The position numbers and the translations under genes were made by a program. Source: Treponema sp. (GTDB lineage: Bacteria; Spirochaetota; Spirochaetia; Treponematales; Breznakiellaceae). From it: 37,839 nucleotides of DNA. How positions within the stretch are numbered: position 1 is the first letter of the stretch; each line of letters starts with the position of its first letter. The notes below the pieces were generated by a model, which made no database searches, was not told where the DNA came from, and was given only the letters and a program-made list of their open reading frames with translations. The stretch is from assembly GCA_009784975.1 (NCBI GenBank), contig WQXG01000031.1, positions 1 through 37,839 on the forward strand, given 5' to 3'. This document shows positions 26,886-31,080 of this stretch, piece after piece.

Positions 26886-27641
26886 TTATCCAAATCTTCC
26901 TGATATATAATCGCTTGTTCTTTGATCTTTTGGATTCATAAAAACTTCTGTTTTGGTGCCTTCTTCTGTCAGATATCCCATCAGCATAAAAACAGCTCTG
27001 TCGCAGATTCGCCCTGCCTGCTGTACATTGTGCGGAGCTATGACAATTGTAAACTGCTCTTTAAGTTTAATTAGCGACTCTTCAATCTTTGCCGTTGATA
27101 TCGGATCGAGACCGGAGCACGGCCTGTCCAAAAGAATTACTTCAGGTTCCAGCGCAAGAACGCGCGCCATGCAAAGACGCTGCTGCTGGCCGCCGGACAG
27201 GCTCATTCCGGAAATTGAAAGCCTGTCTTTTACTTCGTCCCAAAGCGCGGCTTGTATCAATGATTTCTCTGTAATTTCCATCAGTTCTTTTTTTGTTTTT
27301 CTTCCAAGCAGGCGCGGTCCGTAAGAGATATTTTCAAAGATGGACATAGGGAGCGGGGTAGGCACTTCAAAAACCATTCCTACTTTGCGGCGAAGTTCGG
27401 TTACGTTAACATCCTGCGCATGAACATTTTGCCCGTCCAGAAGAATTTCGCCGTTCATCCATGCGCCTGTTGTTAAATCGCAAAGCCTGTTTAATGAACG
27501 CAGCAGGGTAGTAACGCCGCTGTTAGCCGGTCCAAAAACAGCGGTTATATTATTTGCAGGGATTTTCAGATTCAGGCTGTGGATAGCCTGTTTTTTATCA
27601 TAATAAACATTAACATTGTTCAAAATTATTTTAGGTTCCAT
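26886..27641 (-). CDS. PstB-like phosphate ABC ATPase with degenerate catalytic motifs
   Basis: 251 aa, PstB family over its whole length (from LNNVNVYYDKKQAIHSLNLKI to MNPKDQRTSDYISGRFG). It differs at key sites. Walker A reads GPANSGVTT with Val43 in place of the lysine. The Q-loop has Glu92 (GMVFEVP) instead of Gln. Walker B reads VILLDRP with Arg173 in place of the catalytic Glu. The signature LSGGQQQR (148-155) and the H-loop His204 are intact. So it probably cannot hydrolyse ATP at its own site but can complete the site of a partner, which would be the other PstB at 30289. The start at 27641 is chosen over an ATG at 27668 for GAGG placement and family fit. It is the last gene of the pst operon, after a hairpin cluster. 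Confidence 0.85.
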   Translation of the reverse strand: MEPKIILNNVNVYYDKKQAIHSLNLKIPANNITAVFGPANSGVTTLLRSLNRLCDLTTGAWMNGEILLDGQNVHAQDVNVTELRRKVGMVFEVPTPLPMSIFENISYGPRLLGRKTKKELMEITEKSLIQAALWDEVKDRLSISGMSLSGGQQQRLCMARVLALEPEVILLDRPCSGLDPISTAKIEESLIKLKEQFTIVIAPHNVQQAGRICDRAVFMLMGYLTEEGTKTEVFMNPKDQRTSDYISGRFG

Positions 27642-27661
27642 ATTTACCTCATCCCTTTTAT

Positions 27662-27752
27662 GCGGCACGGATGCCGCTGTAATAAATGCTTGGAGTTTTT
27701 GCCAAGCAAAAACTCCGCAGTTTAAATCGGCATGGATGCCGATTTAAACTGC
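27662..27752 (-). promoter_or_regulatory. three consecutive hairpins between pstA and the degenerate pstB
   Basis: Next to the pstA stop is a perfect 16-bp stem (27717-27732 with 27737-27752, loop TGGA). Then comes a 9-bp stem (GGAGTTTTT 27692-27700 with AAAAACTCC 27708-27716), then a 6-bp stem (GCGGCA 27662-27667 with TGCCGC 27672-27677). No T-run follows any of them in the direction of transcription, so they look like RNA-stabilising or processing elements more than terminators. The first and third share a GGCA(C/T)GGATGCC core. Confidence 0.7.
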
Positions 27753-28594
27753 TATCTCTTTATTGATTTTGCAATGAAGCGGTTTACCAATGTGTTGGCA
27801 ACTACGTTTATAAGTAAAATTAAAATTATTAAAAGCGCGGCAGTACCGTAAGCTTTCTCCATTGAAATTCCTTCCCGCGCCAAAATATAAAAATGAACAG
27901 CCATTGTACGGGTCGAAGAAAAGATTGATGAAGGCATACGTAATGCCGAACCTGCCGTAAGAATAACTGCGGCTGTTTCTGCGACGCAGCGTCCCACGCT
28001 TAAAATAATTCCGTTTACGATGCCAAGCAGCGCAGACGGAAAAACCACCCTGCTGATTGTCTGCCATTTTGTCGCGCCCAAAGAGAAACTTACCTCGCGG
28101 TAAATTTTGGGAACGGCAAGAATCGCTTCTTCTGATGTGCGGATAACGGTTGGAAGAATCATAAAGGCAAGAGTTAAACCGCCGGACAGAATAGACCAGC
28201 CCAAATTTAAAATAATTACAAAAAATATAAAACCAAAAAGACCGTAAACAATTGACGGTATCCCTGCAAGAGATTCTGCGCTAAAGCGGATTATGCGGGT
28301 AATGATGGTTTCTTTTGTATATTCTGCCAGATAAAAAGCAGTGCCGATGCCGAACGGAATAACAATGACGATGGCAAGAGCAGTTACCATAAATGTTCCA
28401 ACGATAGAGGAAGCAATGCCGCCTTCGCGTCCCATGCTGCGCGGAATATCTGTCAAAAACTCCAGGTTGATCACCGGCAGACCTCTTACCAGAATAAAAA
28501 CAATTATGAACAACAACAGCCCGATTATTAAAAGCGCGGTTGTCCAAATCAATATTTTTGCCAATTTTTCAAAATGTGCCGGAGTTATTTTCAT
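27752..28594 (-). CDS. pstA: phosphate ABC transporter permease PstA
   Basis: 280 aa inner-membrane subunit with six membrane segments and the MetI-like fold. Family landmarks are GLPVINLEFLTDIPRSMGREGGIASSIVGTF, PFGIGTAFYLAEYT, SLAGIPSIVYGLFG and the coupling loop REVSFSLGATKWQTISRVVFPSALLGIVNG. With PstC it forms the phosphate channel. Its ATG overlaps the pstC stop by 4 bases (ATGA), so the two are coupled. It is followed by a hairpin cluster and the degenerate pstB. Confidence 0.93.
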   Translation of the reverse strand: MKITPAHFEKLAKILIWTTALLIIGLLLFIIVFILVRGLPVINLEFLTDIPRSMGREGGIASSIVGTFMVTALAIVIVIPFGIGTAFYLAEYTKETIITRIIRFSAESLAGIPSIVYGLFGFIFFVIILNLGWSILSGGLTLAFMILPTVIRTSEEAILAVPKIYREVSFSLGATKWQTISRVVFPSALLGIVNGIILSVGRCVAETAAVILTAGSALRMPSSIFSSTRTMAVHFYILAREGISMEKAYGTAALLIILILLINVVANTLVNRFIAKSIKR

Positions 28595-29478
28595 ATTTTA
28601 CTTTTTCCTGAAGTGAGCTTTTTGGTTTGGCGCGGGTTCCGCGTAATATATTGAGCGAAAGAATTCAAAAGCATAATTGCTATGAATAACACAATACCTG
28701 TTGCAAATAACGCTTGCTGGTGTTCGCCGGATGCATATCCCATCTCGATACCAATATTTGTAGTAAGCGTTCTTACAGGATCCAAAATTGATTCCGGAAT
28801 TGCGACAGCATTGCCCAAAACCATTATTACTGCCATTGTTTCGCCTACAGCGCGTCCTATCCCAAGGATTACTGCCGCTACAATACCGGACTTTGCCGCA
28901 GGAAGCATAACCGCGTGAATTGTCTGCCAATGGGTTAAACCCAAAGCAAGAGCTCCTTCTTTGTATTGACGGGGCAGCGCAAGAATGGAAACTTCCGATA
29001 TGCTGATGATCGTGGGTAAAATCATAATGCCAAGTATTATAGAACCGGTTAAAATGCTGAGACCCGGTCCGCCCAGATAATTCCGTACTGCAGGAACTAC
29101 AAATAATAAACCCCAGAATCCGTAAACTACAGAAGGAATACCGGCAAGCAATTGTATTGCCGGCCTGAAAATATTGCTCATTGCAGAAGGTGCAAATTCT
29201 GCAAGAAAAACACTGCAGCAGATACCAACCGGCACCCCGATTATTACTGCCCCAAGCGTAACAGTCAAAGACCCGATAATCATCGGGAAAATTCCAAACT
29301 CGCCTCTGCTGGGAGCCCATTCCATTCCAAAAATAAATTTAATGACGCCGACTTCTGCGATAATCGGCATTCCTTTTATAATGATAAACACGGTAATTAA
29401 TGCAAGCGCTGATATAGAAGAAAGTGCAAGCGCGAAAAAAATATTTCTTGAAAGATGCTCTTTAAATTTCTTAAACAT
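28591..29478 (-). CDS. pstC: phosphate ABC transporter permease PstC
   Basis: 295 aa, six membrane segments. Landmarks are FGMEWAPSRGEFGIFPMIIGSLTVTLGAVIIGVPVG, LLAGIPSVVYGFWGL, the coupling loop QYKEGALALGLTHWQTIHAVMLPAAKSGIVA, and GIGRAVGETMAVIMVLGN. It is the partner of PstA in the channel. GAGGAAA lies before the start, and 18 bases separate it from pstS. The length and motifs are normal, so the transport core seems intact despite the unusual ATPase pair. Confidence 0.94.
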   Translation of the reverse strand: MFKKFKEHLSRNIFFALALSSISALALITVFIIIKGMPIIAEVGVIKFIFGMEWAPSRGEFGIFPMIIGSLTVTLGAVIIGVPVGICCSVFLAEFAPSAMSNIFRPAIQLLAGIPSVVYGFWGLLFVVPAVRNYLGGPGLSILTGSIILGIMILPTIISISEVSILALPRQYKEGALALGLTHWQTIHAVMLPAAKSGIVAAVILGIGRAVGETMAVIMVLGNAVAIPESILDPVRTLTTNIGIEMGYASGEHQQALFATGIVLFIAIMLLNSFAQYITRNPRQTKKLTSGKSKI

Positions 29479-29496
29479 ATTTCCTCTATTAAAATA

Positions 29497-30282
29497 TTAA
29501 GGTATAAGCCCTTCTTGTGCCATCAGCTCTTTCCCTTCCGGTGAAAGAATAAATTCTATAAATTCCATTGCAAGACCTTCCGGCGGTATTGCCTTTGTTA
29601 CAAACAGAAACGGCCTGAACAGGCTATAGCTGCGATTAATAACATTTTCCCGTGAAGCCTCTATACTTCCCAATTTTATTGCTTTTACCGTTTGATCAAC
29701 AAGCCCCAGAGAAATAAATCCGATGGAATTGGGATCTCCTGCGACAAGCTGCCTTACAGCGCCGTTGGAATCCTGGACTATTGCCCTTGGAGTTATTCTG
29801 TGATCCCCCATCACCATTTCCTCAAAAGCGCTTCGTGTTCCCGAACCTTCTTCCCGCGCTATAATATGAATCCTTGCCTGCCTTCCGCCAATCTGACTCC
29901 AGTCATTAATTGCAGCTGTGTAAATATCCCGGATCTGCTCCAGCGTAAGATCTGTAACCGGATTTCCGGGATGAACAATTAAAGCAAGCCCATCCCTTGC
30001 AATTTCTACAGACCAAAGATCTTCTTCTGTTCTTTTAAGCCAGCGAGATGACATTCCAATATCGGCGGCGCCTGATTCTGCTGCAGTAATACCGGCTGAT
30101 GATCCGCCTCCCTGAATATCAATTCCGCTTCCCGGATTCAAACGTTCATATTCTTCGGCTAAAAGTTCGATATAAGGCTGCACCGAAGTAGACCCTGCAA
30201 CAACCAAAAACGAATTAGATCTTCCCCCGCACGCGGTAAGAGTTAACAGTATGATAAACATCGCGCCAATAAAATTTCTCAT
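29497..30282 (-). CDS. pstS: phosphate-binding lipoprotein PstS
   Basis: 261 aa PBP-like (type II) phosphate binder. The lipobox is LTAC (C18). Phosphate-site segments are GSTSVQPY, GGGSSAGI, ADIGMSSRWLK and REEGSGTRSAFEE, all typical of the PstS family of short bacterial members. It would bind inorganic phosphate outside the inner membrane and hand it to PstCA. It lies 6 bases after the canonical pstB and 18 before pstC. The length is at the short end of the family (260 to 300 aa). Confidence 0.92.
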   Translation of the reverse strand: MRNFIGAMFIILLTLTACGGRSNSFLVVAGSTSVQPYIELLAEEYERLNPGSGIDIQGGGSSAGITAAESGAADIGMSSRWLKRTEEDLWSVEIARDGLALIVHPGNPVTDLTLEQIRDIYTAAINDWSQIGGRQARIHIIAREEGSGTRSAFEEMVMGDHRITPRAIVQDSNGAVRQLVAGDPNSIGFISLGLVDQTVKAIKLGSIEASRENVINRSYSLFRPFLFVTKAIPPEGLAMEFIEFILSPEGKELMAQEGLIP

Positions 30283-30288
30283 TTCCTT

Positions 30289-31080
30289 TTACCCAAACCT
30301 TCCGGTGATATAGTCTTCTGTACGTTTATCTTTGGGATTCATAAACATCTGTGAGGTTAAATCGTACTCAACCAATTTTCCTACTCTGTCTTCGCCTATC
30401 ATCAAAAAGGCGGACATATTGGATACCCTAAGCGCCTGCTCCATATTATGCGTAACAATTATAATTGCATATTTTTTTACCAAATCCAGCATTAGCTCTT
30501 CGATTTTCATTGTTGATTCGGGGTCAAGCGCGCTGCACGACTCATCCATCAATATTACTTCCGGCTCTATCGCAATTGCTCTGGCTATGCACAATCTTTG
30601 CTGCTCGCCGGGAGAAAGATCAAGCCCCGGTTTTTTTAAATTATCCTTTACATCGTTCCAAAGCGCCACCTGCGACAAACTATGCTCTACGATGTCATTC
30701 AGCGTATGCTTGCGCCTTATCCCGTGCTGCCTTGGACCAATGGCAATATTATCATAAATACTCATTGGAAAAACATTGGGTCTTTGAAAAACCATCCCCA
30801 CCTTTTTCCTGAGCGATACAACATCCGTAGTTTTATCGTAAATTGACAGCTCGTCCAAAAGAATATCGCCCTCTACCCTGCAGCTGGGAATTAAATCGTT
30901 CATACGGTTAAAAACCCGCAAAAGGGTAGATTTACCGCAGCCGGACGGACCGATTATGGCTGTTATGGTGCGATCATATATATTCATTGTAATGTCGCCA
31001 AGGGCATGAAAGGAGCCATAGTAGAGATTTAACGCTTCTGTCCTTAGCTTTACGCTTTTGTCCTGAATATTGAATTTCAT
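30289..31080 (-). CDS. pstB: phosphate ABC transporter ATPase PstB (canonical catalytic site)
   Basis: 263 aa. Walker A is GPSGCGKST (K50), the Q-loop Gln99 is present (GMVFQRP), Walker [13 protein letters not shown] keeps Asp179 and the catalytic Glu180, and the H-loop is His211. The signature reads LSPGEQQR (155-162) instead of LSGGQQQR. Thus its own ATP-binding half is complete, while the signature it offers to a partner is altered, complementary to the PstB-like protein at 26886. It is the first gene of the pst operon, an unusual place for pstB, which normally comes last before phoU. No phoU is in the window. A possible -10 (TATACT) lies just upstream, but its -35 is weak. Confidence 0.93.

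Follow-up and report, generated by a model that had tools for sequence, protein, structure and literature searches.

Pst, the classic high-affinity importer of phosphate, is regarded as having a symmetric, homodimeric ATPase. In the canonical PstSCAB of Escherichia coli, each Protein Data Bank entry (9k3s, 9k3x) contains two identical PstB chains. Here we describe an operon on the minus strand of a contig from Treponema sp. (WQXG01000031.1, assembly GCA_009784975.1; all 37,839 nucleotides of it are called the window below), which shares with the E. coli system the PstS, PstC and PstA families and the fold of the nucleotide-binding domain (NBD), but which encodes two PstB-like subunits with complementary defects. 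Its five genes run from position 31080 down to 26886 in the order By-pstS-pstC-pstA-Bx, where By and Bx are our names for the two subunits.

In a dimer of ATP-binding cassette (ABC) proteins, each ATP site combines the Walker A, Walker B, Q-loop and His of one NBD with the signature of the other (PMC7756269). In E. coli PstB, uptake is lost with the Q160K substitution in the signature and also with E179Q in Walker B (PMC5775613). Firmicutes are known to carry pstB genes in tandem. The pst operon of Enterococcus faecalis likewise has two PstB copies that differ in function, pstB1 and pstB2, but both keep the four motifs intact according to the available text (PMC12096839). The pstBA/pstBB pair of Bacillus subtilis, again within one pst operon, is listed and modelled as a heterodimer (PMC11466899). 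Importers with one degenerate site are represented by RbsA and NupO, in which the second Walker A Lys is lost and a signature is off-consensus (PMC11466899), but these carry two NBDs per polypeptide and are type II importers, not Pst. TM287/288, the ABCC proteins and ABCG5/G8 also combine one consensus and one degenerate site but are exporters, and in ABCG5/G8 changes in Walker A are accompanied by changes in the signature (PMC7756269). In such exporter sites, bound ATP is believed to serve as a glue (PMC7756269), whereas the Walker side of Bx, without its Lys, Gln and Glu, is more dismantled. The E. coli importer DppDF has separate, unlike NBDs as well, with ATPgammaS density at DppF, but it transports peptides, and complementary loss is not apparent in the available part of the source (PMC12136057). 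In open-licence PMC papers, no report of complementary degenerate PstB was found.

Two PstB-like subunits with complementary defects

Bx lies at 26886..27641 (minus strand) and is 251 amino acids long when read from the ATG at 27641. A preliminary description of the window had reported a Walker A reading GPANSGVTT (Lys to Val, codon 27513-27515), a Q-loop with Glu in place of Gln, a Walker B with Arg in place of Glu (codon 27123-27125) and a perfect LSGGQ signature. Translation bears out all of these: the Q-loop reads MVFEVP (Glu codon 27366-27368), Walker B reads LLDRP, the signature lies at 27186-27200, and the His is conserved. For By (30289..31080, minus strand), the reported intact Walker A, Q-loop and Walker B and the degenerate LSPGE signature are equally found on translation, with the signature at 30604-30618, and the His is retained. 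Neither subunit has every PstB motif intact: Bx is without K, Q and E, and By is without LSGGQ. Divided over the two sites of a heterodimer, these residues would leave one site degenerate. By scores 371.6 bits against the PstB family TIGR00972 (cut-off 343.2), which is also the best family match of Bx, at 336.0 bits and 7 bits below that curated cut-off; some Bx orthologues narrowly exceed it (347.6 in G063, 345.3 in G067; G and L numbers are our labels for genomes and loci). Both genes are uninterrupted open frames, and translation of the window Bx frame gives no internal stop. The Bx start had been placed at GTG 27668, but the ATG at 27641, behind a ribosome-binding-like GGGATGAGG, is the likely one; in the other seven Bx-bearing genomes of the genus, the frame upstream of the equivalent point is short or dissimilar.

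The AlphaFold2 monomer model of Bx (61-row alignment) has a predicted local distance difference test score (pLDDT) of 94.9. The closest solved folds are cryo-EM chains of E. coli PstB, with TM-scores of 0.91 (9k3s) and 0.94 (9k3x_C), so that Bx retains a complete NBD fold.

We favour, with a probability of about 0.85, an asymmetric Pst importer in which By and Bx form an obligate heterodimer whose two ATP sites are unequal, one consensus and the other dead. PstC and PstA would form the channel, and the By-Bx pair its ATPase. The consensus site would be assembled from Walker A and B, Q-loop and His of By together with the LSGGQ of Bx. The second site would consist of the dead Walker side of Bx and the degenerate signature of By; there, MgATP is probably neither hydrolysed nor bound firmly. 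The single ATP site would then drive both the power stroke and release. Since Q160K and E179Q each cost E. coli its uptake, homodimers of Bx or of By are unlikely to be fully active.

Co-occurrence and conservation of the pair

The fetched loci hold 220 distinct PstB, a non-random sample collected by similarity to Bx or as neighbours, counted without matches below 200 bits and without duplicates sharing the last 200 residues (for co-occurrence, duplicates sharing 180 residues). Labelled by their motifs, 127 are intact, 52 are Bx-type and 41 By-type; because the motifs themselves set the labels, the intactness of canonical PstB is no result. Defects on both the Walker side and the signature occur together in none of the 220. 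LSGGQ is retained in 52/52 Bx, and K, Q, DE and H in 41/41 By. Every one of the 41 By has a Bx on its own strand no more than 6.5 kb away. Among the intact PstB, 123/127 have no second PstB within 6.5 kb, and all 123 read [LMI]SGGQ (the 127 signatures are 121 LSGGQ, 4 MSGGQ and 2 ISGGQ). A lone PstB with a degenerate signature is absent from this set of 220, and the chance complementarity that the preliminary description had allowed for, should LSPGE be widespread in lone homodimers, finds no example among the 41.

Within the window's genus, Bx is present in 8 of the 39 searched genomes, always in the order By, pstS, pstC, pstA, Bx (the start of By is cut by a contig end in G015 and G019). In all eight Bx, the Walker A Lys is replaced by Val or Ile, the Q-loop Gln by Glu or Asp and the Walker B Glu by Arg, while LSGGQ and His are retained. 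The By of these genomes retain their Walker, Q and H residues (8/8), with signatures LSPGE, LTAGE, LQPGE, LSPGQ or LAMGQ.

Beyond the genus, genome contigs were scanned with the Bx alignment, and the best 80 of 528 relatives (591 stretches) were used, which makes all clade sizes lower bounds. Among these best 80, 22 loci (L086-L107) are of the window's DR type, named after its Walker B. Their hosts are Clostridiales, Oscillospiraceae and other Bacillota metagenome-assembled genomes (MAGs), together with Hungatella, Coriobacteriales and Erysipelotrichaceae MAGs; Lacrimispora amygdalina PI-S10-A1B is a named strain with the DR-type operon. Many of the Bacillota DR-type MAGs bear isolate names such as Nt197, Lab288, Co191 and Th196, which presumably denote a termite-gut origin. 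Another 11 of the best 80, called type II, come from Omnitrophota (6), Planctomycetes (2), WOR-1, Acidobacteria and one unassigned bacterium. Here the order is pstA-Bx-By, preceded by pstS and pstC where the contig extends. Type II Bx reads GP[AS]NSGK[TS][TS] and has Q changed to A and H to N with DE retained, and the By signatures are LSLEQ, LSGEQ or LSIEQ (Gly to Glu). An intermediate locus (L108, the same as L253, from Deltaproteobacteria SM23_61) keeps Lys and DE and has Q changed to D. Type II provides the second clade in which the preliminary description had proposed to look for the pattern, and its By adjoins Bx in 11/11 loci. In the DR type, two genomes are without By.

Across the 40 DR-type Bx, Walker B always carries Arg and the Q-loop position is always acidic, a pattern suggesting that an interaction between them, perhaps a salt bridge, has been selected. 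By shares the locus with 30 of the 40. Six are cut by a contig end (L092, L099, L100, L102, L104, L106), and four loci have no By (L105, L107, L264, L094). For L264, a By reading LAIGR is present on a different contig of the same genome (G485, whose By is outside the 41 counted), beside pstS and pstC, and L094 is a 4.4-kb contig on which Bx does not adjoin pstA. In order-wide surveys, which scored six candidates per genome and give lower bounds, DR-type Bx occurs in at least 8 of 394 genomes of the order of L088's genome (E <= 1e-103; 8/8 read as DR type) and in at least 5 of 392 of the order of Lacrimispora, where reading covered 30 loci from the 83 genomes that passed E 1e-97 and gave 5 of the DR type and 25 canonical ones. 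DR-type Bx is rare and patchy in these sampled orders.

Bx is under purifying selection. The ratio of nonsynonymous to synonymous substitutions (dN/dS) is 0.071 for Bx and 0.072 for By, compared with 0.048 for PstC and 0.049 for the canonical PstB of the genus; usable pairs were 23/28 for Bx and 24/28 for By, at high median dS (1.77 and 1.70). One species pair with a dS of 0.246 has zero amino-acid changes in Bx. Across the 30 DR-type operons that are complete for the five genes, distances among Bx correlate with those among By (r 0.873, 0/2000 permutations).

Some genomes appear to depend on the pair. In 6 of 25 (G000, which is the window genome, G066, G080, G285, G538 and G108), a single PstC exceeds the cut-off and only Bx and By exceed 260 bits as PstB-like proteins, so that Pst there, if working, must use Bx and By. 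No canonical pst was found in the window genome, which is 95% complete, and PiT matches are absent from the 39 genus genomes (0/39).

Alternative explanations

By might instead act as a homodimer that tolerates its off-consensus signature, with Bx as a regulator, for example facing PhoU or tuning expression. The tandem PstB of E. faecalis, one of which is the principal motor and the other an accessory (PMC12096839), speaks for such a division, as does phoU following Bx in L265, in the intermediate L253 and apparently, from a reading of the sequence, in L094. A pure regulator, however, would not need the LSGGQ that every Bx keeps beside its altered Walker side, and in the six genomes with a sole Pst, Bx holds the only PstB LSGGQ available to By. 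In the window, no phoU lies downstream of Bx, and PhoU-domain matches in the window genome are confined to the frame of a Na/Pi cotransporter. We consider a regulatory Bx improbable. A pairing of Bx with a canonical PstB from another locus, in which the dead Walker side of Bx would face an intact partner signature, draws support from L105 and L107. Their genomes (G063 and G064) contain no By, and their sole other PstB is canonical; in G063 it precedes phoU and a two-component system, apart from both pstC-pstA sets, the second of which has no adjoining PstB. A separate canonical pst is also present in 7 of the 8 operon-bearing genomes of the genus. Six genomes without a detected canonical PstB, and a By in the same locus as 30 of the 40 DR-type Bx, argue against this pairing, and we give it very little credence.

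Loss of Walker residues is often typical of decay, and the preliminary description had named the outcome that would make Bx a mere decaying duplicate: relatives that keep GKST and DE, or that carry stops. The 40 DR-type Bx are all without Lys and Glu, their Walker B Glu having become Arg and their Q acidic without exception, and the two stops flagged in relatives lie upstream of the start. These were TAG codons in the Bx of G002 and G031, and they disappear when the match begins later. Bx is spread over several phyla, and the window gene has no internal stop. The same residues are changed in 8/8 operon-bearing genus genomes at a dN/dS of 0.07, in agreement with the earlier view that the loss is not random. 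Purifying selection and residue conservation (8/8 in the genus, 40/40 in the DR type) refute decay, to which we leave practically no probability.

Several points weigh against the obligate By-Bx heterodimer itself. Physical pairing, one-site hydrolysis and an empty dead site are deduced from sequence. The Bx-By correlation is of a kind expected within one operon, as PstC-PstA (r 0.884) and Bx-PstC (0.83) distances correlate too. The absence of By from G063 and G064 does not fit an obligate pair. By signatures in DR operons retain the Gly at the fourth position, and some of them may still be functional. The window genome encodes a Na/Pi cotransporter, so Pst is not its sole possible phosphate route. 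Finally, a completeness figure (95%) exists for the window genome alone among the six that appear to rely on the pair, and a canonical pst may have been missed.

Evolution of the pair

A quick, unrooted tree of 151 rows, using 58 of the 127 canonical sequences, places 52/52 Bx on one side of a branch with a Shimodaira-Hasegawa-like approximate likelihood ratio (SH-aLRT) support of 99, and Bx still requires a single change after exclusion of 51 motif columns. By I and By II form one group each (99 and 95), and six canonical PstB join them in a wider set (95). Without the motif columns, By II has a support of 87, and two changes are required to account for all By. Bx looks to have had one origin, and By one or two. 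In the Bx tree, L105, L107 and L106 group together (98), from which the dead Walker side may have preceded the loss of the partner's signature. More tentatively, and with doubt, we propose that dead-ATPase PstB had a single origin, in a lineage at present seen in Omnitrophota, Planctomycetes, Clostridia and the window's genus, and that it committed this Pst to spending one ATP per phosphate. In the DR lineage, a salt bridge between the Walker B Arg and the acidic residue of the Q-loop might shut the dead site without nucleotide, making it a permanent hinge and not a glue of bound ATP.

Among the By in the tree, that of G020 (locus L037) clusters with those of two loci, L260 and L261, whose genomes belong to the order of an Oscillospiraceae MAG, and that of the window with the Clostridiales MAGs L086 and L087. 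These groupings suggest that transfer between the window's genus and Clostridia happened more than once. At L037 (G020 C9:56000-70000), the asymmetric operon stands between canonical pstSCAB and phoU, both on the opposite strand, an arrangement that looks like an insertion into a canonical pst-phoU cluster. The canonical PstB is split over two frames in G019 (C26:18476-19221) and G004 (C86:3150-3900), which may be assembly errors. In L259 (G507 C43), about 1.2 kb separates pstC from pstA, and By is farther from pstS than elsewhere.

The remaining genes of the operon

Between Bx and By, all on the minus strand, lie the permease genes pstA (27752..28594; TIGR00974, 273.8 bits, cut-off 193.45) and pstC (28591..29478; TIGR02138, 293.5 bits, cut-off 196.45) and the substrate-binding protein gene pstS (29497..30282; TIGR02136, 224.1 bits, cut-off 206.6). 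PstS, PstC and PstA are thus encoded in one operon, as in a Pst importer. PstS retains the motifs AGSTS, GGSSAG, ADIGMSSR and REEGSGT, which we take to be tied to phosphate binding, and we infer from sequence that phosphate is the substrate.

The gap between pstA and Bx (27642-27751, minus strand) contains three consecutive strong hairpins, with a minimum free energy of -52.6 kcal/mol and a z-score of -8.4. The equivalent site of L032 has a similar triple hairpin with matched stem changes, and in nine other operons inspected the gap is only 9-17 bases. The hairpin core GGCATCCRTGCC has five copies in the window genome, three of them outside the pstA-Bx gap, and among the fetched loci it is confined to the window and L032 sites. 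The triple hairpin is perhaps a mobile hairpin resembling repetitive extragenic palindromic (REP) elements.

Significance

The two lineages, with their different residue losses, are natural replicates of the same complementarity. If the asymmetric heterodimer is real, a type I importer would be able to run on a single ATP site. Each NBD could then be assigned to PstA or PstC, and the pair would offer a clean test of the purpose of the second site.

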